Below, piece after piece: positions 81 to 18,333 of a stretch of 64,000 nt of DNA. The translations under genes were made by a program, and so were the position numbers. The notes beneath the pieces were generated by a model. It worked only from the letters and a program-made list of their open reading frames with translations. It made no database searches and was not told the origin of the DNA. Source of the DNA: Streptomyces sp. TG1A-60 (GTDB taxonomy: Bacteria > Actinomycetota > Actinomycetes > Streptomycetales > Streptomycetaceae); assembly GCF_037201975.1 (NCBI RefSeq), contig NZ_CP147520.1:5766001-5830000 (forward strand), in the 5' to 3' direction. How positions within the stretch are numbered: the stretch's first letter is position 1; each line of letters begins with the position of its first letter.

Positions 81-259
81 AGCGTCGTGGCGTCCTCCTC
101 GGACGGATGGTCGAGGCGATCCTGGCGGCGGCCACCGGCTGGCCCCGCAAGCCCCTCTCACCCGAAGAGGCGGGAAATCCGCGAAGCGCACGTCCCGCCC
201 GTGCCCGCTGCCTACCCTTCGGGGTTACACCAGCGCGTACGGGAACCACAACTGAGGGC

Positions 260-2569: not shown

Positions 2570-2963
2570 CGCGGGGCGAGGCCGCCGTTGCCGTGTCCGG
2601 CAGGGGTACGGTCAGGGTGGCCGTGGTGCCCCGGCGGGTGTTGCGGAGGCGGAGACGGCCGGTGCCGCCGATGAGCGACGCGGCGAGACGCAGCCCCGGC
2701 CCCTCGGCCCGCGCTGCCGGATCCCCGGGTCCCCGGTCCGTGACCGCGCAGCGCAACTCACCCTCCGCCACCCGAAGTTCGACGCTCCCGGCGCCGCCCC
2801 CGTGCACCACGGCGCTCGTCGCCGCCTCCAGTACGGCCTGTACGGACACACCTCGGTCGGCGGCGGCGAGACGACCCCGGATCGCGCCCTCCTCGACCAG
2901 GGCGCGGACCAGGGGAAGTTCGCCCGCACAGAACTCCATCCGCAGCACCAGTTCATCGCTCAC
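2547..2963 (-). CDS. RsbW/SpoIIAB-like ATP-binding protein
   Basis: Predicted 138-residue GHKL-type ATPase of the anti-sigma kinase kind. Visible features are an N-box-like stretch (VLEAATSAVVHGG), a G1-like segment (CAVTDRGPG) and a late glycine-rich part (GPGLRLAASLIGG). The N-box asparagine is replaced, so the domain is divergent. The GTG start at 2963 overlaps the stop of the upstream MEDS-STAS gene as GTGA, so the two are translationally coupled. A STAS protein next to an ATP-binding protein suggests partner switching that controls a sigma factor, or a signalling module; no sigma gene is adjacent. The 3' end overlaps the LuxR gene tail-to-tail. Confidence 0.7.
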   Translation of the reverse strand: MSDELVLRMEFCAGELPLVRALVEEGAIRGRLAAADRGVSVQAVLEAATSAVVHGGGAGSVELRVAEGELRCAVTDRGPGDPAARAEGPGLRLAASLIGGTGRLRLRNTRRGTTATLTVPLPDTATAASPRATTPTAR

Positions 2964-3910
2964 CCGACCCCGTCCTCCTCCCCTTTCCCGTCCCCTTCCC
3001 CGTCGTCCTCGTCCTCGCCCTCCACGCGGACGACCAACTGCGGCACCTCTTCGGCGCCCAACTGCTCCAGTACCAGCCCCAGCAGCTCGCCGCAGCGCAC
3101 GGTGACCTCGCTGCCGGCCGGCAGCGACGCGGCGACGCTGATCAGCTGCCAGGCGCAGTGGGCCTCCATGAAGCACAGATCACGGAGGTCGAGGACGACG
3201 TGGCTGGGGCCGGCGTCGTTCCGGTGTTCCAGCGCCTCGCGCAGCGCCTCGACGAACTCGGTCCGCGTGCTCAGCTCCGCGGTGCCGGCGAACCGGCCGC
3301 CGTCCGGGGTCTCGGTGACCTCCAGGGAGTCCAGCCGCTCCATGACCCGCAGCGGGTGCACCTTGCCGACGCGGGCGGCCAGGTCGTCGTCGAACCGCTG
3401 ACGGTCGTACCAGCAGATCGCGGTGAACAGCGGGTCCGCGAAAAGCGGCGCCACCGAGGCCTCGTAGTCCAGCAGCCGGTCGTGGCCGAGGTTCATCCGG
3501 GGCGCCCAGCTCATGTCGGCGGTGACCCGCAGCCCCGCCCAGCCCTCGTCGCGGGCGCGGTCGACCTCGGAGGCGTACGCGTCCATCGTGCGCCGTTCCT
3601 GGAAGCGGCCGTCGGGAACGTAGATCTCCGTGCTGCGTTTGAGTGACAGCTGGCCGCCCGCCCGCGCCGCCACGACCTGCCCGCTGCCCCGGTCCAGCAG
3701 CGCGACCACCTCGTCGTCGGTCAGGTCGTCCGGGTCCATGACCAGCAGGACCTTCTCCCCGCGCGCCAGACTCGTCCGGGTGTACGCCGTGAACACCTTC
3801 CACGGCGACTCCCCGGCCCCCTCGATGTCCCCCGGCCCCATGCACGCGTGGTCCCCCAGTCGTAGCCGCTCGACGGGCACGGTTCGCTCCGCGGGGTGCT
3901 GGGGCGTCAT
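2960..3910 (-). CDS. MEDS domain protein with C-terminal STAS domain
   Basis: 316 residues. The first 170 or so match the MEDS sensory domain (LRLGDHACMGP near the start, GEKVLLVMDP, MSWAPRMN, ICWYDRQRF), known from DcmR-type sensors. Residues about 205-295 form a STAS-like anti-anti-sigma domain (HVVLDLRDLCFMEAHCAWQL). The tail is a low-complexity acidic run of E, D and G. ATG at 3910 has GGAAGG eight bases upstream. The gene overlaps the ATP-binding gene by four bases, which suggests a coupled antagonist/kinase pair that responds to a small-molecule or redox cue (inference). Confidence 0.85.
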   Translation of the reverse strand: MTPQHPAERTVPVERLRLGDHACMGPGDIEGAGESPWKVFTAYTRTSLARGEKVLLVMDPDDLTDDEVVALLDRGSGQVVAARAGGQLSLKRSTEIYVPDGRFQERRTMDAYASEVDRARDEGWAGLRVTADMSWAPRMNLGHDRLLDYEASVAPLFADPLFTAICWYDRQRFDDDLAARVGKVHPLRVMERLDSLEVTETPDGGRFAGTAELSTRTEFVEALREALEHRNDAGPSHVVLDLRDLCFMEAHCAWQLISVAASLPAGSEVTVRCGELLGLVLEQLGAEEVPQLVVRVEGEDEDDGEGDGKGEEDGVG

Positions 3911-4238: not shown

Positions 4239-4844
4239 TCAGGCGATCCGCTGCAACAACCCCCACGTGAACTCCGCGACGCACTCCCGCCGCACCCCCC
4301 GCCGGTCGGGCGCGACAAAGGCCAGCCCCCACCGGGTCGGCGCCGTCCCCTCCAACGGCCGCGCGGGCACGAAGGCCCGTGCCACCTCGTCGACCGTGCA
4401 GGACCAGGGCGTCAGATCCTCCAGAACCCGCGGCTCAGGCCCCGTCGCCCCCGGTGCCCGTACCAGCCACTCGTTCCACACCGCCCCGTTCGGCGCGAGC
4501 AGCACCTCGAAGCGGAGGTCCGGCCACAACGGCACCGACCACAGCCGGGCCTCGCAGTCCAGGTCACCGATACGGCGCCGGGCCACGGTCTCGGGCGCGC
4601 CCAGGACCGACCGGTACCGGGCGGCCGAGCCCCGCGCCCGGGGCGACCGCACCATCGCCTGCCACCGCTTGTTCGCCTCGCGCATCTGTGCGAGGGAGAC
4701 GCCCAGTTCACGCCGGGCCTCGTCGACGAGGTCCGGGTTGTGGTCGGCCATCCGGCGCAGCAGCACGAGCTGGAAGTCGAGCGGCGTGAACGGGCCGGAG
4801 GGCTTATCGGGGCCGGGGCGTTTCGGGGAGGGCATGCGGTCCAT
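4239..4844 (-). CDS. Conserved hypothetical protein
   Basis: About 201 residues from ATG at 4844 (MDRMPSP...; ATG at 4835 is also possible). The sequence is soluble and Trp/Arg-rich, with no signal peptide or membrane segment. Features visible are a helical N-terminal part (FTPLDFQLVLLRRMADHN) and a C-terminal part with repeated Trp (WNEWL, TPWSC, RWGLAF). I do not recognise the family. It is the last gene of the minus-strand envelope operon and overlaps the end of the FkbM methyltransferase gene by about 40 bases, so it is probably co-transcribed. Function unknown. Confidence 0.65.
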   Translation of the reverse strand: MDRMPSPKRPGPDKPSGPFTPLDFQLVLLRRMADHNPDLVDEARRELGVSLAQMREANKRWQAMVRSPRARGSAARYRSVLGAPETVARRRIGDLDCEARLWSVPLWPDLRFEVLLAPNGAVWNEWLVRAPGATGPEPRVLEDLTPWSCTVDEVARAFVPARPLEGTAPTRWGLAFVAPDRRGVRRECVAEFTWGLLQRIA

Positions 4845-5643
4845 CGTCGCGTACGGCGCCGGACGCGGGGGCCGGCTCACCCGGACGGCGCCCGTCCGGC
4901 AGGAACAGCACCGAGTTGACGTACCGGGGGCCGGCGAACGGCAGGACGCGGCGGAGCAGCCCCCGGGACGCCACGTACGACGTACGCGCCTGGTGGGCCT
5001 CCAGGACGGCCGGGTCGAGGCGGAGCCAGGTCCCGGCGGGCAGGACCCAGCCGGCGTAGCCGAGGCCGGCGAGGAGGTCGACGACCGGGGCGATCGGCTG
5101 GATACGGGACTCCAGCTCGACGAAGAGGGCCGGGCGGTCGCGGGCGAGGAGGCCGGACGCGCCGCGCAGGACGGCCAGTTCGTTGCCGTCCACGTCGATC
5201 TTGACGAACCCGACGTCCGTCAGGCCGAGACCGTCGAGGGTGACGCAGCGGACGTCCAGCGCGCGGGCGTGGATGTCCCGGCGGACCAGCGACGACACGC
5301 CCCGACCGCCGTCGTCGCCCGGCGGCAGCCAGAGTCGGGCCGTGCCCGGCTGGTCGGAGGCGGCGGCCTCGACGACGCGGACGTTGGCGGGGGAGGTGGA
5401 GGTGAGCAGCCGGGCCAGCCGGGGCACCGGCTCGACGGTCACCACGCGCCCGGCGCGCCCCGACAGCCGGCGCGTCCAGGGGCCGTACCAGCCGCCGACG
5501 TCCACCGCCGTGCCGCAGCCGGGCGGGCACAGTTCGTCGAGCCGGGACAGTTCCGGCTCGAAGCGCGGGTAGACGAGCCGGGCGGCCACGGCGATCACCC
5601 GGTCCGGCAGGAGCGGCGCGAGCCGTGCGGCGAGGGTGGTCAA
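4804..5643 (-). CDS. FkbM family methyltransferase
   Basis: SAM-dependent methyltransferase of the FkbM type, predicted to O-methylate a sugar or polyketide hydroxyl. It has a class I SAM motif (AVDVGGWYGPWTRRL), an acidic turn at the end of strand 2 (VVTVEPVP), and the FkbM signature VKIDVDGNELAVLRG. The frame is open further upstream, but TTG at 5643 is the best start. It overlaps the stop of the Trm112-like gene as TTGA, has AAGG about seven bases upstream, and gives 279 residues starting just ahead of the conserved part. It probably modifies the glycan made by its glycosyltransferase neighbours (inference). Confidence 0.8.
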   Translation of the reverse strand: MTTLAARLAPLLPDRVIAVAARLVYPRFEPELSRLDELCPPGCGTAVDVGGWYGPWTRRLSGRAGRVVTVEPVPRLARLLTSTSPANVRVVEAAASDQPGTARLWLPPGDDGGRGVSSLVRRDIHARALDVRCVTLDGLGLTDVGFVKIDVDGNELAVLRGASGLLARDRPALFVELESRIQPIAPVVDLLAGLGYAGWVLPAGTWLRLDPAVLEAHQARTSYVASRGLLRRVLPFAGPRYVNSVLFLPDGRRPGEPAPASGAVRDDGPHALPETPRPR

Positions 5644-5888
5644 GAGCTCGCCCTTCGGAGAAGTTCCTGGAGTTCCTGGTGCTCGTCCTCCGTCACCTGT
5701 TCGCCGGACGACGGCAGCAGTTGCGGAACGCCGTCGACGATCGGGTAACGACGGTGCAGTCTCGGGTTGTAGAGCGACTGCGACGCCTCGGAGGCGTCCG
5801 ATCGCTCCTTCTCGCGGACCACCAGGTGCAGCGGGCCCTTGTCCAGCGGGCACGCCAGGATCTGGAGCAACGGGTCGTCGGGATTCAT
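5640..5888 (-). CDS. Trm112-like (UPF0434) small protein
   Basis: 82 residues starting MNPDDPLLQILACPLDKGPL and containing RRYPIVDGVPQLLP, the hallmark of the Trm112/UPF0434 family. Family members are small zinc-ribbon-like proteins that often activate methyltransferases. Only one Cys is seen in the first motif, so zinc binding may be lost. ATG at 5888 overlaps the stop of the DMT gene (ATGA), and its own stop overlaps the FkbM start. Sitting between methyltransferase genes, it may act as an accessory subunit (inference). Confidence 0.85.
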   Translation of the reverse strand: MNPDDPLLQILACPLDKGPLHLVVREKERSDASEASQSLYNPRLHRRYPIVDGVPQLLPSSGEQVTEDEHQELQELLRRASS

Positions 5889-6814
5889 GGCGGTGTCAAC
5901 TCCTTGGCGGAAACGGGCTGTCGGGGTGGCGCGGACGGGGGACTGTCGTGCTTGGGCATGCTCAGCAGCACGGCGACCGCCAGTACCGTGCCCGACAGCC
6001 GCAGCGTCAGCCGCAGCGGATCGTCGGGCAGCGACTCGCCGAACGACAACGTGCCGAGCACCGCCGTGAACAGGCAGGTCACCGTCGTACAGACCGGCAC
6101 GATCAGCGAGGCCCGGCAGCGCTGCAGCGCCGCCTGCGACATCACCAGACCGAACGCGCCGGTGAAGAGAAGGAGATACGGGTACGGGGAGCGCAGCAGG
6201 CCGACCACCGTGTCCCCGAGCCCGCCGACGGTCAGATAGCTCGACACGCCCTTGATCGCGAGCGAGCTGACGCCGTACAGCAGGCCCACCGCCACGCCGT
6301 ACTCGACACCCGTCGTCGGCAGCCGGTGCCGGTGCCGCGCGCGCCGCTCGGCGGACCGGTACAGCCCCACACCCGCCGCCAGCGCGGGCAGGCAGATCGT
6401 CAGGACCAGCGCGTACGGCGCCTGACGGCTGACGGTGTCGGAGCTCTCGTCCAGCGACAGCACCACCATCAGCAGCGCGGCGAGGATGGCCCCGAGGGCG
6501 AACCGCTCCCGGCCCGTGGTCTGCTCGCCGAGCAGCCGCGCCGAGAGCAGGACGAGCAGCACCAGCCCCGACACGAAGATGCCCTGGGCGGCGGCGATCG
6601 GCAGCGTCCGGTACACGGCCAGCTGCGCGGCGAACCCGGCGGCCAGCGACAGCGAGCCCGCGATCCACAGGGGGCTGCCGACGACCAGCCGCAGCAGCCG
6701 CACGGGCTCCCGGACCGTCACCTGCGGCATCGCGGTGAGTGCCCGTTTCTCCAGGACGAATCCGGTGCTGTACAGCGCGTTCGCCAGCAGGGCCGCGGCC
6801 ACTCCCCACCACAT
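5885..6814 (-). CDS. DMT (EamA-like) family membrane protein
   Basis: 309 residues with nine or ten predicted membrane helices and the drug/metabolite transporter layout. The N-terminus reads ALLANALYSTGFVLEKRAL, and the middle contains LPIAAAQGIFVSGLVLLVLL and LLGEQTTGRERF. It resembles the EamA/NIPA branch. Members move small solutes, and some flip lipid-linked sugars such as undecaprenyl-phosphate arabinose. Its place among glycosyl- and methyltransferase genes makes a lipid-linked sugar or precursor flippase attractive, but this is inference. It starts nine bases after the preceding methyltransferase stop. Confidence 0.8.
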   Translation of the reverse strand: MWWGVAAALLANALYSTGFVLEKRALTAMPQVTVREPVRLLRLVVGSPLWIAGSLSLAAGFAAQLAVYRTLPIAAAQGIFVSGLVLLVLLSARLLGEQTTGRERFALGAILAALLMVVLSLDESSDTVSRQAPYALVLTICLPALAAGVGLYRSAERRARHRHRLPTTGVEYGVAVGLLYGVSSLAIKGVSSYLTVGGLGDTVVGLLRSPYPYLLLFTGAFGLVMSQAALQRCRASLIVPVCTTVTCLFTAVLGTLSFGESLPDDPLRLTLRLSGTVLAVAVLLSMPKHDSPPSAPPRQPVSAKELTPP

Positions 6815-6823
6815 CGTCGCCCC

Positions 6824-7615
6824 CTACGTCCGTCGGGTCGTGCGTGAGGCCGGCGGGGCGGGCCTGCGCGCGTGCAGCAGCAGGATCGACGCGGCCGACG
6901 GGGCCGCGCAGGCCAGCCGGTCCAGTGGACGCAGCGGGCGTGGTACGCCGTGGAAGGGCGCCCCGCGAAGTCGTACGACCTCGAAGCCGGACGCGGCCAC
7001 GAACTCCCTCAGCGCGCGGGCGGTGTAGAGCCGCAGATGGCCCACGACCTCCGTCCCCGGGCGGCCGTGGATGCCGCGCAGGCTCACCTCCGAGAACACC
7101 GGCTGGACGCCCGCGAGCAGCAGCGCGCGGTTGTACCAGGCCGCGAGGTTCGGGGTGGAGAGCATCAGATGGCCGCCGGGGCGCAGGACGCGGTGGATCT
7201 CGTCGAGGGCCGCGTCCGGGTCCACCAGGTGCTCGATCACCTCGCTGAACAGGACGGCGTCGGCCGACTCCGACCTGAACGGCAGCCCGCCGTCGGCCAG
7301 TTCGCCGCGGACCGCGTGCGGGATGCGGGTGCGGGCGCGTCTGAGGGCGTCCTGGGACCAGTCGACGCCGATGACGCGGTGGCCGGTGAGGAGGGGGGCG
7401 GCGGTGGCCGCGGCGGTGCCGTCGCCGCAGCCGATGTCGAGGACGGTGCGGGGCCCCGCGGTGACGGCCGGGCCCAGGGCCGCCGCCAGCATGCGGGCCT
7501 GGGCGAGGCTGCGGGGGGTGCCGGAGGCGACCGGCACGGACGGGTCCTCGTAGAAGTCCCGAAGTCCTCCTCGGGGCGCATGAGCCGGGGTGTCGGGGGG
7601 TGTCGTGGCCGGCAT
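6824..7615 (-). CDS. Class I SAM-dependent methyltransferase
   Basis: 263 residues. Motif I is VLDIGCGDGTAAATA near residue 58, an acidic residue follows in VIGVDWS, then SEVIEHLVDP and the post-II segment LRPGGHLMLSTPN. These are classic for the UbiE/Methyltransf_11 fold. Substrate is unknown; the operon suggests a lipid-linked sugar or polyketide-like moiety. ATG at 7615 shares a base with the TGA of the upstream condensation gene (TGATG), so translation is coupled. The ORF extends far upstream in frame, but that part overlaps the neighbour and has no coding character. Confidence 0.85.
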   Translation of the reverse strand: MPATTPPDTPAHAPRGGLRDFYEDPSVPVASGTPRSLAQARMLAAALGPAVTAGPRTVLDIGCGDGTAAATAAPLLTGHRVIGVDWSQDALRRARTRIPHAVRGELADGGLPFRSESADAVLFSEVIEHLVDPDAALDEIHRVLRPGGHLMLSTPNLAAWYNRALLLAGVQPVFSEVSLRGIHGRPGTEVVGHLRLYTARALREFVAASGFEVVRLRGAPFHGVPRPLRPLDRLACAAPSAASILLLHARRPAPPASRTTRRT

Positions 7616-9111
7616 CACTCGGGGTCCTCTTCCGTCGCGTGCAGGTAGTGCTCGAAGAGGTCGCGGAGGTGGGCGCCGTCGCCGTGGCCGAGCAGGGCCC
7701 GGGACCAGCGCAGGGCCAGGTGGAGGCGGCCCGCCGTGGAGGCGGTCGTGACGGTGAGGCCGCGCGGCATGCGGGCGGGGGCCGAGAACCACACGGCGTG
7801 GGCGCGGCCGGCCTCCTCGCCGAAGTCCAGCGCGTACGGGACGCGGCCGATGTTGCTGAGCAGGGTGGTCGACGTCCACGGCGCCGCCGCCCTGCGCAGG
7901 CCCCGGGTGAGGGCCGCGCGCCAGGCCACGGGAACCATGGGCGCCGTCAACAGGGATGCGCCATGCCCCAGTTGGGGCTTCTGAAGGGACTTCAGGGTGC
8001 GGGTGCGTTCCGCCGTGCGGCGCAGAAGGGTGGGCAGGGGGGTGCGGGCCGGGTCCACCTCGCTCGGCGAGAAGGGGACTTCGACGAGGCGGGTACCGTT
8101 CCCGATCGGCATGTCCGTGTCCCTCGTGCGGTCGTCCACGGGCATCGTGATGCGGAGGGGGCGGGGGCGGGCGCCGTGTTCCCGGTTCCAGTGGGCGAGC
8201 ATCAGGGCCGTGGTGACCATGAGCTGGTCGTTCACCGTGTACGGGGCGGACCTGGGGCGGCGGGGGACGGGGAGTTCGGTGACGAGCAGGCCGTTGCCGG
8301 GGGAGGGTTCGGGGGTGCCGGGGGCCACTCGGGCGGGGCGGGCCCAGTGGGAGGGAGGATCCGGCTCGGCCGGGGCCGCTTCGTCCGGTGTGGCGGTGCG
8401 GCCGGGGCGGACGGGTGGGGCCGTGGCGGAGTTGTCCTTGCCGCCGTACAGTTCCGCCGCGGTGGCGAGTATGCGGAGGCAGGCCGGGCCGTCCAGGGCG
8501 GTGTGGTTGATGGTGAGGACGAGGACTGTGCCGTTGCCTTTCGGACGTCCGGGGGTGGTGTCGGCCGGGGGGTCTTTCCGCTGCTCGGCGGTACGAGGCG
8601 CCGCCGTGCCCACCCGTGCCGCCCCGGCGGCGCCGCTGTCCGCGGCCGGGACGGCGGAGCGGGAGGCGTGGCCCACGTCGTCGCGGGCCGCGCTGCCCAC
8701 CGCCGGCCCGGCCCCCTCCACCACCGACAGGCGGATCGGTGGGGACATCGACAGCGGGGGCGCCTCCACCAGGGCTCTTGTTCTCGCGTCCCGCAGGGCG
8801 TGCGGCCCGGCCGGCGGAAAGGCCACCACCTCGGTTTCCGGCTCCTTGGTCAGTTCCCACTCGTAGCGGCGGCTGTACCAACGGCCCGGGACCTCACGCA
8901 TGAGGATGCGGGGGTGGCGGTGCAGGGCGCTGGTGAAGGCGGCGCGCAGGCGGTCGGGGTCGAGGCGGCCGGGGAGGTGGACCTCGATGTGCACGGTCTC
9001 GGGTTCCTCCTGCTGGAGGCAGTGCCGGGACACCTCGTCGACCACGGGGAAGGGGACGCGGACGGACCCGTGGGCGGCTTCGTCCCGTGCGGGGTGGTGC
9101 AGTGCGGTCAT
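7615..9111 (-). CDS. Condensation/acyltransferase-like protein with variant HxxxDG motif
   Basis: 498 residues related to NRPS condensation, PapA and wax-ester-synthase-like acyltransferases. The catalytic motif is present as NHTALDG: the second His, the Asp and the Gly are kept, but the first His of HHxxxDG is Asn. A DFGEEAG-like segment sits near the C-terminus, where the family has DFGWG. Residues about 130-185 are a low-complexity Ala/Arg/Pro insertion. Family members transfer acyl groups to hydroxyls or amines. Its start overlaps the end of the AftD-like gene (ATGA), which supports a role in acylating the glycan or its lipid carrier (inference). Confidence 0.75.
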   Translation of the reverse strand: MTALHHPARDEAAHGSVRVPFPVVDEVSRHCLQQEEPETVHIEVHLPGRLDPDRLRAAFTSALHRHPRILMREVPGRWYSRRYEWELTKEPETEVVAFPPAGPHALRDARTRALVEAPPLSMSPPIRLSVVEGAGPAVGSAARDDVGHASRSAVPAADSGAAGAARVGTAAPRTAEQRKDPPADTTPGRPKGNGTVLVLTINHTALDGPACLRILATAAELYGGKDNSATAPPVRPGRTATPDEAAPAEPDPPSHWARPARVAPGTPEPSPGNGLLVTELPVPRRPRSAPYTVNDQLMVTTALMLAHWNREHGARPRPLRITMPVDDRTRDTDMPIGNGTRLVEVPFSPSEVDPARTPLPTLLRRTAERTRTLKSLQKPQLGHGASLLTAPMVPVAWRAALTRGLRRAAAPWTSTTLLSNIGRVPYALDFGEEAGRAHAVWFSAPARMPRGLTVTTASTAGRLHLALRWSRALLGHGDGAHLRDLFEHYLHATEEDPE

Positions 9112-12100
9112 GCCCGCTCCTCCCTTCCCGTGCCGCCGTCCTCGCCCGGCGGCGTCGCCTTGGACTGCGGCTTGGTGAACCGGGTCCGCCGGGCCGGGGT
9201 GTCCGGCTCCTCGTGCGGGGAGCCGGGTCCGCGCGCGGAGATCGTCGGGCTCGCGAGGGATCCGCCTGCTCCTCCCGGTCCGTCCGGTCCGCCGTTCGGC
9301 GTCCCGTCCACGCGCCTCCGCCGCGGCAGCGGCTCCGTCGGCTCCTCCGCGCCCGGCGGTGCCTCGAACCGCCGCGTGGAACCGGGGCGGTCGGACGGGG
9401 ACCCGACGCCCGCACCCACGCTCACGAGTGCCGAGAACAGACCGGTCAGCGCGAGGAGTTGGGCCACATGGCCGAACGCTCCCTCGTCCGCCGCGACCGG
9501 CTCTCCCGCTCCGAGGGCGGCGGCGAGGCCGGCGCCGGCCAGGGCCAGGAAGGCGATCGGCACCAGCAGGGTGTGCCGTTTCCAGGCGAGGAGGGCCAGA
9601 AGGGGGACGAGGAGGGCGAGGAAGCCCGCGATGACGATGCCGACGAGGGTGAGGGCGATCGTGCCCAGCCACAGTCCGGGGCCCGGCGGGGCGGGCTGCG
9701 GCTCGTCGGGGTTGGGCTCCTGGCGGCGCCACAGGGCGAGGCCGATGAGGACCGCGAGGCCGACGCCGGCGCCGATCAGCCCGGCCTCGTACGTCACGGC
9801 CGGCTCGTACGACAGCTTGACGGTGCCGCCCGAGCCGCCGGGGACGCGCCAGCCCTGCTGCCAGCCGTCGAGCCGTACGGGCGTGAGTTCACGGCCGCCC
9901 AGCGTGGCCTTCCAGCCGTCGTTGAAGTTCTCGTACGTCGTCAGGTAGGAGGCCGCGCCGTCGCCGACGGTGACCTCGCGGCGGTCGCCGAGCCAGTCCC
10001 GTACGCGGAGGTCACGGCCGGTGGCGGTGGGCTCGGTGACCGTGCCCCGGGTGAGGGTCACGGTCGTGACGGCCAGGGCGCCCGAGTCCTCGGACTCGAA
10101 GGTGTGCCGGTCGGCCGCACCGAGCTCCAACTCCGCGTTCTCGCGGTCGTCCTGGCAGAGGGTCAGGTCGACGGGGCGCCGTTCGGCCAGGTCCCGTACC
10201 GTCCCCCGGGCGCTCGTCTGGTACGGCGTCCCGTCGACCTCGACCACCGGGCCCTCGCCGCACGGGAGCTCGAAGTCCCGGGTCGGCGCGGGCTGCGGGG
10301 TGCGGAACTGGTCGAGGGCCGGGACGTACGCCTCCGTGAGGCCGACGGGGAGTTGCAGGTCCTCGTCGGCGACGGGGTTGTGGACGGTCAGCGGGGCCGT
10401 CTCGGTGACGGTGATGTCGAGGCGGTCGGTCGTGATCGGGTCGAAGCGGACCCAGCCGTTCTCGTCGACACCGGCGATGGCGGCGCCGTCCGGTGAACTG
10501 ATCTCGACCTGCGTCGGGCGGGTCGACAGACCGCCCGCCGGGGCCAGGACGAGCGAGCTGATCGGCCACTTGTCGCCCCAGCTCAGATGGATCGTCGGCT
10601 CGTCGCCCGCGATCCACGCCGTCGTCAGGTCCCCGTCGGTGAGGTTGCGCGGCGAGAGGGACGCCCCGAGGGAGGCCGTGGAGTCGGCGGTCGCCGTGAT
10701 CCGCGCCTGCTGCTCGGGGGCGACCTCGTACAGCAGCTTGTCCAGCTCCTCGCCCGGTACGGGGACGGCCGTCGCCTTCATCTCGTACGACCCCGCCGTG
10801 GAGGTGGCGAAGACGCGGTGCAGCCCGGGTTCCGTGCCCGTGGGGGACAGGCCGGTCGGATCGGCGGCCCGCTGGAGCGAGACCACCTCGGCGGAGGCGG
10901 CCGTGACGTCGGGGTCCCGGGTGTCCGTCGGCAGCCGCAGCATCCGGGTGACCTCGACGCCGGGGATGTCGATCTCGGAGAAGCCCGCGCCGACGAGCCC
11001 GGTGTGCCGCTCGGCCGAGTCGAGGATCGTGATCTTCAGCCAACCGCTCTCTCCGGGACGGGCGTTGACGGTCTGCGTGGAGCCGTCGGTCCGGAGGTTC
11101 GTGGAGCGCGAGCCCCGCTCGGTCTCCACCTTGATCCGGGTCGGGGCCGACCGGACCCCGTCCCGCGGCAGCGGTGTGACCTCGAACGTCTCCGGGATGT
11201 CCTGGCCGCCGTCGAAGTCGATCCGCAGCCACTGCCCGTTCGCCGATCCGGCCGAGCCCTCCGCCCAGGCGGTGCTCCGGTCGCCGTCGAAGGCGTTGAC
11301 CGGATCGTACTGCGGCAGATGGAACAGCCAGTTGCCGCTGGTGGACGCGGTCACCGACTCGGCGCCCCGCAGCCGCGCCACCGTCTGATGGTCGAGGCCC
11401 GACACCGGCAGGATCTGTTTCGGCTGCTCACCGGGGTTCTGCACGCTCCCGCTGGGGTTCCGCTCGTCGGCCGTGTACGTGTACGACGTGTTGGCGTTGA
11501 CCAGGCCGAAGCGGGTGTCCGCGCGGCGCAGCCCGTCACCGACCACCTGCACGGCCGGGGTGCCGAGGCCGGGGTGGTTGTCGCCGGTCAGCACGGTGGC
11601 GCGGTCCCGCAGCTCCGGGTCGGCGGCCAGCGGCAGCAGCGACTCGGGGCCGCCGGAGACGACGGCGGTGTCGGCGATCGCCTTCAGCCCGGCCTGCCCG
11701 GGACGCGGCACGCCCTCGGCGGGCCGGTAGATCTCGACCGCACGCTGCCGCGCGTACAGCCCCTCCACCTGGAGCGGGGTGCCCTCCGCGATCCGCCCGC
11801 CGGTCATCACCGGTCCGAGCCCCGTCACCCGCTCGTACCCGGACTGCTCCAGGGTCCGCTTCACGGTCGTGGTCGGCACGTAGCCGATCTGGTCGGGGTC
11901 CAGGTCGTTGCGTACGACGACGTAGTACAGGCCCGCACGGCTCAAGTAGTCGGCCAGGCCCGGGACTTCGCCGCCGGTCAGCAGTGCCTGCTCGACGGCG
12001 TCCATCGCGCGCCGGTTGCCGGCGGTGCCGAAGGGGACGTAGTCGCGCTGCGCCCAGCGGGACTCGGCGAGCACGTCGAGCGGCTGGTCGACGGTGGTGC

Positions 12101-13529
12101 CCCAGGTGTGGATGCCGTGCGCGGTGGCCGGCACGACCAACGCCCGCGAATCCGGGGAGTTCTTGTCCAGCCAGTCGGCCGTGGCCTGCCAGTACCGGGG
12201 CAGCTCCTGGAACGAACCCGGTTGCAGCACCGATCCGTTGAGATACGGCCACAGCAGCCCGGGGACGACGAGGACGGCCGCGACGAGGGGTGCGAACCGC
12301 CGCCCCCGCACCCGACGGGCGCCACGCGACTGCGCGGCCACCCCCACCAGATGCGCGAGTCCCAGGACGAGCGCCAGCGCCAGCCCGGTCTGGAACTTGT
12401 AGATGTTCCGGAAGGGCGCGAGGCCCCCGTTCAGCCAGTCCTGGACCACCCCGTGGAAGGGTGCCCCGAACGCACCGCCGTACCCGGCGAGCGTGATCAG
12501 CGCGACCACCAGCACGGTCAGCACCAGCCACCGCCGCTCGGGCATGTCCCGTCGCGCGAGCCCGGCCAGACCCAGCCCCGCGGCGAACGCCGACGCCAGG
12601 ATCACGACGACGGACGCGGCGACGCTCCACCCGGCCGGCAGCCAGGGCTCACCGAAGTTCAGATACGCCACCCAGTTACCGGCGCCCCGCAGCGCCTCGG
12701 TGGCGGACATGGTGGCCGTCGTGGTCTGTGAACTCTCCACGTAGGGAAGGAAGTTCTCCCCGTGGATGCCGAGCAGCAGCAGCGGGACCACCCACCACGC
12801 GGTCGCCAGGATCACCCCCGGCACCCACCAGGCGATCAGCCTCCGCTGCCGTGTCCCCGGCGTCCGGGTGAGCAGATACAGCCCCACGGGCAACAGCGAC
12901 GCCAAGGTGGCGGCGGCGTTCACCCCGCCCATGAACGGAATGACGAGCGCCGACCTCAGGGCGGCCACCCGCGCGCCGTACCGCTCGTTCGTCAGCGGCA
13001 ACAGCACCCACGGCAGGAAGGCCCCCGGCAGCGCGGCGGCCGACGTCGACCCGACCACCGTGGTGAACACGGGCCACAGCGCGTAGGCGACGGCGGCCGG
13101 CAGCCGTGAGGCGGAACTCCCGACCCCCAGCCGCTCGGCCAGCCGCAGCGCACCCCAGAAGGCGACCGACACGATCAGCGACAGCCACAGTCGCTCCGCG
13201 AGCCACACCGGCAGTCCGACCAGATCGGTCAGCCCGTAGTACGGCAGCATCGGCCACAGGTAACCGACGTACTGGTCCTGGATCCCGCCGAACCCGCTTC
13301 GGTCGTGCCACAACTGACCGAGGTCGGAGACGAACTGCCAGGGGTCGGTGGTGACCCCGAGCTTGGTGTCGAAGGTCTGCCGCCCCGGCTGCGCGGCGAC
13401 CAGCAGTACGAACACCACGGCCCAGAACCCCAGCAGCCAGCGCCGCGACCGAGGGCCCTCGGGAGGCCTCCCGGTCGTGCCCGCCGGTCGTACCGGCGCG
13501 GGAGGTGGAGCCTGGACCGTGCTCGTCAT
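9108..13529 (-). CDS. AftD-like alpha-(1->3)-arabinofuranosyltransferase family protein (DUF3367)
   Basis: Giant membrane protein of 1473 residues. The first 480 or so residues hold many membrane helices with a GT-C fold, after an N-terminal helix in WLLGFWAVVFVLL. A long extracellular part contains two F5/8 type C-like carbohydrate-binding segments, around VNAFDGDRSTAWAEG and NLTDGDLTTAWI. The C-terminus has three or four more helices. Mycobacterial AftD (about 1400 residues) adds branching arabinofuranose to cell-wall arabinan from a polyprenyl donor. Streptomyces walls lack mycobacterial arabinogalactan, so the acceptor here is unknown. ATG at 13529 overlaps the upstream stop (ATGA); an earlier GTG is less likely. 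Confidence 0.85.
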   Translation of the reverse strand: MTSTVQAPPPAPVRPAGTTGRPPEGPRSRRWLLGFWAVVFVLLVAAQPGRQTFDTKLGVTTDPWQFVSDLGQLWHDRSGFGGIQDQYVGYLWPMLPYYGLTDLVGLPVWLAERLWLSLIVSVAFWGALRLAERLGVGSSASRLPAAVAYALWPVFTTVVGSTSAAALPGAFLPWVLLPLTNERYGARVAALRSALVIPFMGGVNAAATLASLLPVGLYLLTRTPGTRQRRLIAWWVPGVILATAWWVVPLLLLGIHGENFLPYVESSQTTTATMSATEALRGAGNWVAYLNFGEPWLPAGWSVAASVVVILASAFAAGLGLAGLARRDMPERRWLVLTVLVVALITLAGYGGAFGAPFHGVVQDWLNGGLAPFRNIYKFQTGLALALVLGLAHLVGVAAQSRGARRVRGRRFAPLVAAVLVVPGLLWPYLNGSVLQPGSFQELPRYWQATADWLDKNSPDSRALVVPATAHGIHTWGTTVDQPLDVLAESRWAQRDYVPFGTAGNRRAMDAVEQALLTGGEVPGLADYLSRAGLYYVVVRNDLDPDQIGYVPTTTVKRTLEQSGYERVTGLGPVMTGGRIAEGTPLQVEGLYARQRAVEIYRPAEGVPRPGQAGLKAIADTAVVSGGPESLLPLAADPELRDRATVLTGDNHPGLGTPAVQVVGDGLRRADTRFGLVNANTSYTYTADERNPSGSVQNPGEQPKQILPVSGLDHQTVARLRGAESVTASTSGNWLFHLPQYDPVNAFDGDRSTAWAEGSAGSANGQWLRIDFDGGQDIPETFEVTPLPRDGVRSAPTRIKVETERGSRSTNLRTDGSTQTVNARPGESGWLKITILDSAERHTGLVGAGFSEIDIPGVEVTRMLRLPTDTRDPDVTAASAEVVSLQRAADPTGLSPTGTEPGLHRVFATSTAGSYEMKATAVPVPGEELDKLLYEVAPEQQARITATADSTASLGASLSPRNLTDGDLTTAWIAGDEPTIHLSWGDKWPISSLVLAPAGGLSTRPTQVEISSPDGAAIAGVDENGWVRFDPITTDRLDITVTETAPLTVHNPVADEDLQLPVGLTEAYVPALDQFRTPQPAPTRDFELPCGEGPVVEVDGTPYQTSARGTVRDLAERRPVDLTLCQDDRENAELELGAADRHTFESEDSGALAVTTVTLTRGTVTEPTATGRDLRVRDWLGDRREVTVGDGAASYLTTYENFNDGWKATLGGRELTPVRLDGWQQGWRVPGGSGGTVKLSYEPAVTYEAGLIGAGVGLAVLIGLALWRRQEPNPDEPQPAPPGPGLWLGTIALTLVGIVIAGFLALLVPLLALLAWKRHTLLVPIAFLALAGAGLAAALGAGEPVAADEGAFGHVAQLLALTGLFSALVSVGAGVGSPSDRPGSTRRFEAPPGAEEPTEPLPRRRRVDGTPNGGPDGPGGAGGSLASPTISARGPGSPHEEPDTPARRTRFTKPQSKATPPGEDGGTGREERA

Positions 13530-14374
13530 GGTGGACACCGCCGGAGGATGAGAAGGAGGTTCCAGGTGGCGAACTCGCGAAGTCCCGGCGCTTTCACGAC
13601 GGTCTCCGCGAGAAACGGCCAGTAGCGGGAGCGCGCCGACACGACCGTCACGTCGTCCCGGCCGCGCACCTGCCGCAGAGTGCGTCCGATGTGCACGGCG
13701 AAGAGGTTCTCGCCGAGAGTGTGCTTGGCGTCCTGCCCGGTACGGCGCCGATAGCGGGCCCGCGCCCGCTCCGCGCCCAGGTAGTGCCACGGCGCCCACT
13801 CGTGCCCGCCCCAGGGGGACAGCCAGTTGGTGAACGACACATAGATCAGCCCGCCGGGCCGCGTGACCCGCACGAGCTCGCTGATGAAGGTCGGCGGATC
13901 GGCGACGTGCTCCAGCACGTTGGAGGTGAAGGTGACGTCCGCGACGCCGTCGCCCAGGGGGAGGAGGTACCCGTCGGCGACGACTGCCCCGTCCGGCGGC
14001 TTCGCCCCCAGCTCCCGCGGATCCGGCTCGAAGAGATATGCCCGCGCTCCGCGCCGCCGGAACTCCTCGGTGAAGTACCCGCTCCCACCGCCGACGTCGA
14101 CGATGGTCCGCCCGTCGACCGGACCGCCGTAGGCCTCGACCTGGTCGACGGCGTCACGAGCGAGCAGGGAGTAGCAGTACTCGGGATCGTCCTGCTCCCG
14201 CATGAAGGCCCGGAAGAGGGTGAGGGAGCGCCGCAAGGAGGGATCCTTCACGGCCGCCGGTCCGCTTGCGGGGCGCGGGGCCGTGACCTGTGCGGCTCCG
14301 CCGCGTGGGCGCGGCCGGCCTTGACGGTCCCGCAGCCACCGACGCCCCTGCGAGGCATCCCGCTTCGCGCTCAC
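13526..14374 (-). CDS. SAM-dependent methyltransferase
   Basis: 282 residues. SAM motif I is TIVDVGGGSGYFTEEF near residue 90, the acidic loop is YLFEPDP, then TFTSNVLEHVADP and VTRPGGLIYVSF follow. The GTG start at 14374 overlaps the stop of the glycosyltransferase gene (GTGA); the first 30 residues are Arg-rich and poorly conserved-looking. The C-terminus contains HEWAPWHYLG, typical of methyltransferases found in glycan clusters. It probably methylates a sugar or lipid intermediate made by the operon. Confidence 0.85.
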   Translation of the reverse strand: MSAKRDASQGRRWLRDRQGRPRPRGGAAQVTAPRPASGPAAVKDPSLRRSLTLFRAFMREQDDPEYCYSLLARDAVDQVEAYGGPVDGRTIVDVGGGSGYFTEEFRRRGARAYLFEPDPRELGAKPPDGAVVADGYLLPLGDGVADVTFTSNVLEHVADPPTFISELVRVTRPGGLIYVSFTNWLSPWGGHEWAPWHYLGAERARARYRRRTGQDAKHTLGENLFAVHIGRTLRQVRGRDDVTVVSARSRYWPFLAETVVKAPGLREFATWNLLLILRRCPP

Positions 14375-15521
14375 GGAGTCCAGCCCCGCACCGCTTCCGC
14401 GGCCACCGCCCGGAACTGCCGCACCGTGTGCCCCCAGCGGTAGAGCGCGGCCCGCTCCCGCGCGGCCTTGCCCATCCGCACCCGCCGATCGGTCGACAAC
14501 GCCAGCGCACACCAGGCCGCGGCGAACGAGGACTCCCCCGGGCCAGCACCCCGGTCTCCCCGTCCACGACGGAATCCCGCAGGCCGGGCACATCGAAGGC
14601 GACCGAGGGCGTCTCCCGCACGGCGGCCTCCGTGACGACGAGCCCCCACCCCTCGACGGCCGAGGGGTGCAGCAACAACCAAGCGGCGCACAGCAGTCGG
14701 TGCTTCTCGGCCTCGGAGACATGCCCGGCGAACTCGACACCGGGCCCGGCCATCGCTTCCAGCCGTTCCCGTTCGGGCCCGTCACCGACGATCACCAGCC
14801 GCCCGCCCGTGACGGGGCGCACCCGTTCCCACAGCCGCAGCAGCAGATCGATCCGCTTGTACTCGACGAGCCGTCCCACCGCCACGAACAGCGGCTCGGG
14901 AGACCGTTCGGCGCGAGGCCCCGGCTCCTCGACTCCGTTGTGCACGACCCGTATCCGCTCCCGCTCCACGCCGATCGCGCGGAGCGCGGTGGCCGTGGAG
15001 GAGGAGACCGCGACCATCAGGTTGCGACGTTGCGCGGCGGTGAGCGCCCAGTGTTCGAGTCTCCGGCCGAGCCGCGCGGCCGGCGCCAGCGGGCCGCCGA
15101 ACCGCAACTGCCACAGGTCCGTGTGCACATGGTTGACCAGGCACAACGTCGGACCGTGGTGCCAGAGCGGCGCGAGATAGGGCATGCCGTTGCAGACCTC
15201 GACGAGGAGGTCGCAGTCGCCGACCTGACGGGCGAGGGCCGACCTGGCGCGCAGATGGTGGCTCAGATCCCCGCCCGCCGACACGACCCGGTAGTCGCGG
15301 AAGGCGGCCGGGCCGCCGCACACCAGGGTGACCTGGTGGCCGAGTCGGGTCAGGCCTTCGGCGAGCCGGTCGACGAGGAGCTCGGAGCCCCCCGCCGCCG
15401 GATTACCGAGGTCACGGCGGGCGAGAAAGACGATCCGGCGCGGCTGCGGGGGGACTGCCGGCCGGTGCTGGTCGAGGCGTGGAAACGCCTCGACCAGCGA
15501 GAACGGCACGTGCTGGGGCAT
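14371..15521 (-). pseudogene. GT4 family glycosyltransferase with an apparent one-base frameshift
   Basis: GT-B fold glycosyltransferase of the GT4 family. The N-domain begins RRIVFLARRDLGNPAAGG, and the C-domain has EGWGLVVTEA (the E-x7-E donor-binding motif) and GLRDSVVDGETGVL. At about 14535-14543 the reading frame must change. Upstream sequence fits one frame up to GVLARG, and the remaining 55 residues (SSFAAAWCALALS...GHTVRQF) continue in another. One extra G in the five-G run would restore an intact protein of about 383 residues. The restored stop overlaps the methyltransferase GTG. Either a sequencing error or a recent inactivation; the domain itself is otherwise well preserved. Confidence 0.8.
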
Positions 15522-15759
15522 GGGTGCTCCAACTCGTCTCGGGGTGCGGAACTCAGCGGGGAGAAGGACGTTCGCTGTGGGGGATGTTCCGGAGGGAGGG
15601 GGGGGCCGGGTGGGTCGTCAGGGTCTCGGTTCTCGTAGGTGCTTGTGGGCGAGGTGTGGGTGGGTTGTGCTCAGGTGGGGTGGACAGTTTTCGCCCAGCG
15701 GTTCGAAGCTGCTACTCACCGGCGTGACAATTTCCGGGGTTTGTTGAGCTGACGCCCTG

Positions 15760-16737
15760 TCATATCGTGATCGGTTCCTGGGACGACTCGGGCGTATCGG
15801 GGCGCTGCCTGCCGCGCACGACCAAAACGGCACCCGTCGCGGCGAGGGCGAAACCGAGCACAGCGGTACCGATCGGCACCGTGCGCCCCACCAGCCGCAG
15901 CAGTCCGCTGTCCTTCTCCGCCTGGTCGACCGCGAACTGCTGTGTCGCGGGGGTGAACGCGAGCTTCCGGCTGTCGAGGAGGACCGCCGCGTCCCGGTCC
16001 CCGCCGGGCGCGCGCAGGGTCCGGCGGGGACCGGTCTGCGCGTAGACGACCCGGCCGGTGCTCTGGTCGACGACCAGCTCGACGCCGTGGTTGGCGTACC
16101 ACTCCTCGGCCAGCACCTGTGGCCGGTTCGGTTCGTCGACGAGGGCGCCGGGGACGAGCCGGGTGCCGGTCTTGGTGGCCGGGACCTTCGCGGTGAAGCG
16201 CAGCCCGTCGTAGCCCCGGATCTTCTTGCGGCCCTCGTAGTGGAGCGTCACCGTCGCGCCGAGGGTGTTGTCCCACCAGCGGTAGGAGCGTTCCTGCACG
16301 TCGAAGGGGAACTTCAGGTACGCCTCGCCCTCGATGTACGGCTTCTCGTCGCAGCAGTGCACCGGCCGGTTGGTCTTCCGGTCGCTGACCCAGCGGTGCG
16401 GGGTGAAGTCCAGCGCGTCGTGCGGGTCGGCCGCCGGCAGCGACTTGTCGGTGTCGACCGAGGTGACCACGTCCCACACCGCGGCCCCGCTGCGCTCGCT
16501 TTCGGCCACATCACCGCGTACCCGCTGGGTCACGGTGATCTTCTGGTCCGGCACGGTCCTCACCTGCTCCACGTCGAAGACGCTGCCCGTGCCGGTGTAG
16601 ACGGCGGTCGTGTCGATGTCGATGGGGTTCACCGCGGCCCGTGGCTTCACGTACCACGCGAGCAGGGGCGCGAGGACCAGCAGGAACGTACCGAGGCCCA
16701 GCAGGACCAGGGAGAAGGGCGAGGCTGTACGGCGCAT
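15760..16737 (-). CDS. DUF3068 (PorA-like) membrane-anchored protein
   Basis: 325 residues with one N-terminal membrane helix (FSLVLLGLGTFLLVLAPLLAW), a long extracellular domain, and a C-terminal helix (IGTAVLGFALAATGAVLVV) followed by a short charged tail. The pattern VNPIDIDTTAVYTGTG and the two-helix layout fit DUF3068. In mycobacteria this group lies near envelope genes. It is separated by about 240 bases from the glycosyltransferase gene on the same strand, so it may belong to the same transcription unit. Function is not established; an extracytoplasmic partner of the AftD-like enzyme is a guess. Confidence 0.8.
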   Translation of the reverse strand: MRRTASPFSLVLLGLGTFLLVLAPLLAWYVKPRAAVNPIDIDTTAVYTGTGSVFDVEQVRTVPDQKITVTQRVRGDVAESERSGAAVWDVVTSVDTDKSLPAADPHDALDFTPHRWVSDRKTNRPVHCCDEKPYIEGEAYLKFPFDVQERSYRWWDNTLGATVTLHYEGRKKIRGYDGLRFTAKVPATKTGTRLVPGALVDEPNRPQVLAEEWYANHGVELVVDQSTGRVVYAQTGPRRTLRAPGGDRDAAVLLDSRKLAFTPATQQFAVDQAEKDSGLLRLVGRTVPIGTAVLGFALAATGAVLVVRGRQRPDTPESSQEPITI

Positions 16738-17091: not shown

Positions 17092-18333
17092 GTGGCCGGA
17101 GGCCCGGGAACCGTCACAGTCCGCTCCGCCTGGCACGACGTGCCGCGCCCGCAGGTGCGGGAGTTCGCCGCGATCGCCATGGCCGAGGCCCCCGCCCTCG
17201 CGGAGGAGATCCTTCGGGAGATCCGCCGCGAGTACCCGCACCTGCCCGTCGTCCTCGACGACTCCGGCGAGCCGATGGCCCTCATCGGTATCCGCCGTGC
17301 GATCGAGGTCTTCGTCCAGCACCTGGAGACGGCGGAGGGCCGGCCACGCGTCCCTCCCGGCGTCTTCCAGGAGTTCGGCCGCGGCGAGGGCCTGAACGGC
17401 CGCAGTCTCGACTCCCTCCAGGCGATCTACCGCCTCGGCGTACGCCTCGCCTGGCGCCGCTTCGCGGAGATCGGCCAGCGCGTGGAGATCCCGCCGCCCG
17501 CGATGTACGAACTCGTCGACGCCGGATACGAGTACCTGGACGGCCTGGTGGACCAGTCGGTGCGCGGCTACGCGGAGGCGGCGGCCCGGCAGGCGGGCGA
17601 GCGTCTGCGACTGCAACGCCGACTGACGGAACTCCTCCTCGCCGAACACCACCGGGGCGACCCGGCCGACGCGCTCAGCGAACGCGCGGCCCGGATCGGC
17701 TGGGCCCTCCCGGAGAAGGTCGCGGTCGGGGTCCTGTTGCGCCCGGCCCGTGAGGCCATGGCCCCCGCAGTCGGTCAGGGCGTCCTGCTCGACATGGAGT
17801 ACGAGCGGCCGCGCATGGTCGTCCCCGAACCGGACGCCGCCGGCCGCCCCGAACTCCTCCACCGTGCCCTGACCGGCTGGTCCGGTGCGATCGGCCCGCC
17901 GGTGCCGCTGGCCGACGCGGCGAAGTCGCTGCGCTGGGCGGAGGCCGCGGTGCGCCTGATGGAACGCCGGCTGCTCCCCGGCGGCGAGGTCCTGTACTGC
18001 ACCGAGCACACCGAGGCCCTCGTCCTCCTCCAGCCCGAGGAGCTGATCGACGACCTCGCCCTGCGCTGCCTCGCCCCGCTGGCCCACTGCGGCCCCACCC
18101 ACGGCCGCCGTCTCGCCGAGACCCTGCTCGCCTGGCTGGAGACCCGTGGCGGTGCCCCCGAGATCGCCAGCCGGCTCGGTGTGCACCCGCAAACCGTCCG
18201 GTACCGCCTCCGCCAGATCCGCGAACTCTGGGGCGGCGAGATCGACGATCCCGACCGCCGCTTCGAACTGGAGCTGGTCCTGCGCGCGCAGCGACTGCGA
18301 GGGGAGCTGGGAGACCCGCGCGGCAGACGCTGA
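17092..18333 (+). CDS. PucR/CdaR-type helix-turn-helix regulator
   Basis: 413 residues with a C-terminal PucR-type helix-turn-helix (APEIASRLGVHPQTVRYRLRQIREL at about 355-380) preceded by a GGDEF-like degenerate central domain. The N-terminal half (AIAMAEAPALAEEILREIRR; LDGLVDQSVRGYAEAAARQ) is helical. Family members usually control a nearby catabolic or biosynthetic gene in response to metabolites, but no obvious target adjoins. GTG at 17092 lies three bases after the DUF2613 stop. Confidence 0.85.
   Translation: MAGGPGTVTVRSAWHDVPRPQVREFAAIAMAEAPALAEEILREIRREYPHLPVVLDDSGEPMALIGIRRAIEVFVQHLETAEGRPRVPPGVFQEFGRGEGLNGRSLDSLQAIYRLGVRLAWRRFAEIGQRVEIPPPAMYELVDAGYEYLDGLVDQSVRGYAEAAARQAGERLRLQRRLTELLLAEHHRGDPADALSERAARIGWALPEKVAVGVLLRPAREAMAPAVGQGVLLDMEYERPRMVVPEPDAAGRPELLHRALTGWSGAIGPPVPLADAAKSLRWAEAAVRLMERRLLPGGEVLYCTEHTEALVLLQPEELIDDLALRCLAPLAHCGPTHGRRLAETLLAWLETRGGAPEIASRLGVHPQTVRYRLRQIRELWGGEIDDPDRRFELELVLRAQRLRGELGDPRGRR

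Follow-up and report, generated by a model that had tools for sequence, protein, structure and literature searches.

Gene content and conservation of the AftD locus

In a 64,000-nucleotide stretch of the Streptomyces sp. TG1A-60 genome (a single contig of 7.83 Mb; G000:C1:5766001-5830000, hereafter the window, with positions counted from its first letter), we analysed ten consecutive minus-strand genes that surround a homologue of the membrane glycosyltransferase AftD and run from PgfA (16737-15760) to a hypothetical gene (4880-4239). An initial annotation had described a tightly coupled envelope-glycan operon at this position, with a DUF3068 gene just upstream. Profile searches confirmed the minus-strand genes it listed and their domains, with amendments to the extent of the GT4 gene and the class of the acyltransferase-like protein, and identified the DUF3068 gene as PgfA, which ends 238 bases before the GT4 start (the median gap in relatives is 225 bases).

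From 5' to 3', PgfA (15760-16737; the operon-linked paralogue, PorA Pfam family PF11271, 265 bits) is followed by a GT4-family glycosyltransferase (14371-15521; PF00534/PF13439) that carries a frameshift near 14540, a class I methyltransferase of MtrP type (MT1, 13526-14374; PF08241), AftD (9108-13529), a condensation/PapA-like candidate CoA-dependent acyltransferase (7615-9111) and a second class I methyltransferase (MT2, 6824-7615; PF13489, PF08241). Downstream of these lie genes for a DMT-type multi-span membrane protein (5885-6814; NF038012 DMT_1, 36.7 bits, below the cut-off of 50), a small Trm112-like protein that may partner a methyltransferase (5640-5888; PF03966, 46.9 bits), an FkbM-family methyltransferase whose TTG start overlaps the Trm112 stop (4804-5643; PF05050, 54.2 bits) and a conserved hypothetical protein of 213 amino acids (4239-4880), whose gene overlaps that of FkbM by 77 bases. 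Neither a family profile match nor a PDB relative was found for the hypothetical protein. The gene overlaps reported at 13526, 9108, 7615, 5885 and 5640, as well as the GTGA at 14371, were all present. A scan of the operon for sigma-70 promoters and terminators found nothing, and was uninformative here.

The AftD homologue (1473 amino acids) matched PF11847 with 755 bits (cut-off 26), carried C-terminal PF24607 and PF00754 modules, and matched PDB entries 6wbx/6w98 with an E value of 2e-142. AftD has been reported as an alpha-1,5 arabinofuranosyltransferase (PMC6034362). In an alignment with 29 further AftD proteins (26 of them from other genera, and many partial), the window protein agreed with them at every column in which they are invariant, including E265, R374, D481 and R495, while D54 was near-invariant. 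Thus, like AftD (PDB 6w98, 6wbx; Corynebacterium glutamicum NCgl2757), it combines a GT-C domain and CBM/discoidin domains with the residues invariant in the family. Unlike AftD of mycolate bacteria, the Streptomyces homologue stands outside any known arabinogalactan context, and only some of its carriers have an intact supply of decaprenyl-phosphoryl-arabinose (DPA).

The acyltransferase-like protein contains an NHxxxDG motif in which N202, H203 and D207 were invariant in 28 orthologues and the glycine was present in at least 90%. HHxxxDG is the active-site motif of the condensation clan, and NHxxxDG is a variant of it. The PapA5 profile scored 21 bits, well short of its cut-off; a minority of orthologues, the window's own protein not among them, gave weak matches to PapA_C, WS_DGAT_C or Condensation; and a PDB search found no relative. 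The protein can thus be assigned only weakly to the condensation/PapA clan, which qualifies the earlier condensation/acyltransferase-like call.

Gene order was compared in the best 80 of 232 loci, which are the closest relatives of the window AftD (the nearest 87-90% identical). Since conservation among close relatives overstates that of the genus, a sample of 121 Streptomyces genomes and a varied set of 13 further Streptomyces loci, 11 with AftD just 64-70% identical to the window's, served as a partial offset. Among the 51 of the 80 close loci with more than 20 kb of sequence each, GT4, MT1, AftD, the acyltransferase, MT2, Trm112 and the hypothetical gene were each present in all 51, the DMT protein, FkbM and the divergent regulator upstream in 50, and PgfA in 47. 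The order was identical in 51/51 loci, and all ten genes were called as reading frames in 45 of them. In L056, from a strain of S. violaceoruber, operon genes were present as far as the contig reaches. With start codons picked by a heuristic, six of the nine junctions had a median of -4 bases (GT4/MT1, MT1/AftD, AftD/acyltransferase, acyltransferase/MT2, DMT/Trm112 and Trm112/FkbM) and MT2/DMT a median of +3 bases, and the MT1/AftD overlap was present in every one of the 51 loci. We rejected the idea that the overlaps arose by chance, since they are kept in relatives. All 13 varied loci had the regulator (adjoining PgfA), PgfA, GT4, MT1, AftD, the acyltransferase, MT2 and Trm112, while the DMT protein was found in 12, FkbM in nine and the hypothetical gene in five, again in unchanged order for the genes found. 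The gene-order comparison thus bore out the proposal of one co-conserved operon around the AftD homologue; the hypothetical gene, which had been counted as a member, is constant in close loci (51/51), but its presence in just five of the 13 varied loci makes it peripheral. AftD itself was patchy, occurring in 50/121 Streptomyces genomes and, in a phylum-wide set of 296 genomes, in 47 (46 above cut-off). Two Streptomyces genomes, G388 and G341, carried two strong AftD genes apiece; the copies in their loci L140 and L141 share ~65% identity with the window AftD and have a similar operon around them.

The window PgfA scored 315 bits against NF053601 (equivalog cut-off 160), although its function in Streptomyces is a prediction. 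A PF11271 gene occurred in 95 of the 121 Streptomyces genomes, and the window genome has two PgfA genes, the one in the operon and a general one (G000:C1:6304688-6305587) of a type that Streptomyces without AftD have as well. After exclusion of one weak second AftD match (G382, 32 bits), PgfA lay within 8 kb of AftD on the same contig in 47/52 AftD loci. In the five exceptions PgfA is on another contig, as a second copy in G351, G353 and G362 and as the only one in G324 and G383. More than one PgfA match was seen in only three AftD-less genomes, G172, G396 and G402, the extra match being strong in G396 (252 bits) and weaker in the others. In four named operons (L072, L075, L076, L078) the locus contained no PgfA.

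Relation to the Corynebacteriales aftD/tmaT locus

In the Mycobacterium-like genome G038, a cluster contains a methyltransferase, a GT4, a 570-amino-acid membrane protein, PgfA and an acyltransferase-3 gene, with AftD ~10-20 kb off. This layout is that described for Corynebacterineae (PMC8698533, PMC7775120, PMC6034362), and we took the 570-amino-acid protein as MmpA and the acyltransferase-3 gene as TmaT because of their positions in the published locus. According to published work, TmaT, MmpA and MtrP of this conserved locus act in the transport of acetylated trehalose-corynomycolate, and NCgl2760 (PgfA) acts in the synthesis of lipomannan/lipoarabinomannan (PMC8698533, PMC7775120). The precise function of MtrP is described there as unknown (PMC8698533), and work on Mycobacterium smegmatis assigns PgfA to the pathway of MmpL3 (PMC9678360).

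When the G038 proteins were used as queries against 64 Streptomyces loci, the methyltransferase and GT4 each found a match in 64/64 and PgfA in 59/64. MmpA matched in 0/64 and no TmaT lay beside AftD, in searches that covered the loci rather than whole genomes; a weak TmaT match appeared in five of the 64 loci, the window not among them, and the four seen in detail had 26-29% identity and lay ~7-9 kb beyond AftD. In the opposite direction, MT1 had its best match at the AftD locus in five of seven distant genomes (43-50% identity, 170-227 bits; next best at most ~40). The GT4 of an intact relative (L032) had its best match within ~20 kb of AftD in all seven (133-194 bits; next best at most 62). 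Taken together, the orthology of MT1 and GT4 and the family membership of PgfA and AftD indicate that the operon is almost certainly a co-conserved unit homologous to the aftD/tmaT locus, a relation that the initial annotation had overlooked.

The two loci share PgfA, GT4, an MtrP-type methyltransferase and AftD in one region (NCgl2757 to NCgl2764 in Corynebacterium; about Rv0224c to Rv0236c in mycobacteria). They differ in that Streptomyces adds the acyltransferase-like protein, MT2, the DMT protein, the Trm112-like protein and FkbM in a tight operon, and has neither MmpA in the loci nor TmaT beside AftD. In Streptomyces, the acyltransferase and the DMT protein may have taken the places of TmaT and MmpA. 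G038 also has three PF04602 arabinosyltransferase genes, a family that was absent from the four Streptomyces genomes searched. Outside the genus, loci L152-L155 (genomes G082, G133, G198 and G260) had MmpA-, TmaT- and PgfA-like genes near AftD; according to one paper, MmpA has no homologues beyond corynebacteria and mycobacteria (PMC8698533).

We read the operon, with a probability of about 55%, as the Streptomyces version of the actinobacterial aftD/tmaT locus, in which glycosylation with polyprenyl-phosphate sugars makes a methylated, acylated envelope glycan or glycolipid. The product is probably an envelope glycan or glycolipid. The cytosolic GT4 would start or extend a lipid-linked sugar, which MT1, MT2 and FkbM would methylate, possibly with help from Trm112, and which the PapA-like enzyme would acylate. 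The DMT protein, whose role as a flippase is a guess, would help the lipid-linked sugar across the membrane. On the outside, AftD, as a GT-C enzyme using a polyprenyl-phosphate sugar, would add a further sugar, most plausibly D-arabinofuranose from DPA where the genes for DPA exist, and PgfA, with a predicted part in extracytoplasmic lipid/glycolipid trafficking, would carry the product. The methyltransferase-rich, acyltransferase-containing gene set also resembles tailoring genes, such that the locus could be a cluster for glycosylating a secondary metabolite by means of an AftD-type enzyme. However, the ten proteins include no polyketide, peptide-synthetase or terpene core enzyme, gene order is constant across varied Streptomyces and the core is common to an envelope locus, and we regard this possibility as very improbable.

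In mycobacteria and corynebacteria, work on MtrP, PgfA and AftD has centred on mycolic-acid transport, lipoglycans and arabinan. Streptomyces are not known to have mycolates or arabinose in their walls. As the operon nonetheless has its core genes in common with the aftD locus, it probably makes a surface glycan or glycolipid that has gone unseen. Of interest is the occurrence of the aftD/tmaT core in a mycolate-free setting, as a version of a well-studied locus. The literature covered, which left out most subscription papers and included PMC2610374, PMC3196553, PMC10699116, PMC6437091 and PMC7688586, yielded no study of the operon or of DPA in Streptomyces. Within it, S. hygroscopicus is reported to yield lipoteichoic acid rather than lipoglycan (PMC3196553), and a gene annotated aftD is listed, with no function given, as one of the genes that recombine most often in S. 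rimosus (PMC6437091).

Genes for decaprenyl-phosphoryl-arabinose and the possible sugar added

Many Streptomyces encode a four-gene cassette for DPA (UbiA, a PAP2 phosphatase, DprE1 and DprE2) that is unlinked to the operon. In the two loci read fully, L138 from the AftD-positive G123 and L139 from the AftD-less G172, all four genes stood together, and the Streptomyces cassette was 41-48% identical to the G038 enzymes. The cassette thus has the same enzymes as known DPA biosynthesis (UbiA/Rv3806c, DprE1, DprE2), and differs in being unlinked to the operon and, in the window genome, broken. DprE1 was near-full-length in eight of the first 12 Streptomyces genomes (39-47% identity), split in the window genome and not found in three. 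The presence of the cassette in many operon-bearing Streptomyces makes arabinofuranose more plausible as the sugar than the initial annotation, which had proposed a methylated, possibly acylated arabinofuranose-type product, could have known.

Counting UbiA as strong at an E value of at most 1e-80, with 12 weaker or partial matches scored as absent, we found it in 48 of the 121 Streptomyces genomes: 29/50 with AftD and 19/71 without (Fisher p 0.0007). Of 48 named operon-bearing genomes, 39 had a strong UbiA and one a weak match, and the other eight gave no match; the contrast with AftD-less Streptomyces is 39/48 vs 19/71. Since shared ancestry inflates such contrasts, we compared dependent and independent models of gain and loss on one-gene (pheT) trees. 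The dependent model was favoured with p 0.041 on the nucleotide tree, 0.052 when three partial tips were dropped and 0.030 on the protein tree, and the estimated rate of UbiA loss was 3 to 4-fold lower when AftD was present (p 0.030-0.035). These results are no more than suggestive of a coupling between the gain and loss of AftD and UbiA. Outside the genus, UbiA occurred in 14/19 AftD-bearing genomes.

Several observations weigh against our reading of the operon. The association between AftD and UbiA was borderline once corrected for phylogeny (p 0.03-0.05, one-gene trees). A strong full-length UbiA was absent from 21/50 AftD-positive Streptomyces, the window's included (four of the 21 hold weak or partial matches), and a close relative with the full operon, L099, had no UbiA match in its genome. 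Elsewhere in the phylum, UbiA had no match in 5/19 AftD-bearing genomes (G082, G133, G198, G260 and G235); in the first four, an AftD locus is present but no UbiA, full-length DprE1 or PF04602 was found, which means that AftD, and even the whole locus, is not bound to DPA. The carriers without UbiA within and outside Streptomyces weaken the claim that arabinofuranose is the donor sugar. The 19 AftD-less Streptomyces that keep UbiA indicate that DPA has other uses. Further, the two most distant of the seven genomes searched with MT1, G016 and G110, carry AftD and GT4 without an MT1 orthologue, and the DPA cassette of the window genome itself is damaged, as described below.

Alternatively, the same machinery may use a different polyprenyl-phosphate sugar (mannose, for instance, or a pentose other than arabinose), with the DPA cassette serving an unrelated pathway. 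In favour of this, AftD persists in Streptomyces without a strong UbiA and in other carriers without any UbiA match, four of which also have no full-length DprE1 or PF04602, and UbiA persists without AftD. The co-occurrence of operon and cassette, together with the lower rate of UbiA loss in the presence of AftD (p about 0.03), argues the other way, and we consider a different sugar a substantial but lesser possibility. For arabinofuranose as the sugar added, the odds suggested by these comparisons fall just short of even. The product first proposed is therefore favoured by the DPA cassette in many carriers and put in question by those that have no UbiA.

More tentatively, many Streptomyces may produce DPA and rely on a rebuilt aftD/tmaT locus to arabinofuranosylate a methylated, acylated envelope glycolipid. 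If this is true, the PgfA-GT4-MtrP-AftD core would predate mycolic acids and arabinogalactan or be independent of them, and its mycobacterial role would have to be reread as a general step of glycolipid assembly and transport. The presence of the core in a mycolate-free genus that is easily grown, with the DPA cassette in many species, gives a convenient setting in which to study its function in the absence of mycolates. It also leads us to expect a Streptomyces surface glycolipid that contains arabinose or is new in another way.

State of the window copy and neighbouring genes

The GT4 gene had been annotated as one open frame from 15521 to 14371, which proved incorrect. The frame that opens at 15521 continues to 14154, the stop at 14371 sits in another frame, and a one-base frameshift that had been overlooked lies near 14540. 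None of the nine relatives compared shares the break, and a full open GT4 frame was confirmed in eight of them. A programmed frameshift was considered and rejected, because the frame is plainly open in 8/8 relatives checked, although a slippery signal was not sought. Since the break falls within a G-rich stretch, an assembly error is possible; the break may be a true mutation or such an error, sequence alone being compatible with both.

The broken DPA cassette lies outside the window, at about G000:C1 3076220-3078650 (about 8222-10653 of locus L137), and consists of a C-terminal remnant of UbiA, a DprE1 that has lost ~90 internal residues and an intact DprE2; the cassette gave no PAP2 match, and a search of the genome found no further strong UbiA. 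The three closest named relatives (L031, L032 and L033) each have an intact UbiA in their genomes. With the GT4 frame and the DPA cassette both broken, the product may be missing or changed in the window strain. The operon copy is possibly decaying there, with GT4 knocked out, DPA synthesis lost and the other genes carried as passengers. Both the absence of the frameshift from 9/9 relatives and the damage to a cassette whose UbiA is intact in the three closest named relatives speak for decay. On the other hand, AftD, MT1, the acyltransferase, MT2, the DMT protein, FkbM and PgfA have open frames and good conservation, the G-rich frameshift could be an artefact of assembly, and other species keep the operon without UbiA, such that we judge decay a serious prospect but somewhat less probable than its converse.

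Upstream of PgfA, a divergent PucR/CdaR-type regulator (17092-18333, plus strand; PF13556) is a candidate regulator of the operon. Downstream of the operon lie a MEDS/STAS-type sensor (2960-3910, minus strand) and a LuxR-type ATPase regulator (107-2569, plus strand). The MEDS gene was also present, within the flanks available, in L032, L033, L079, L099, L103 and L145.

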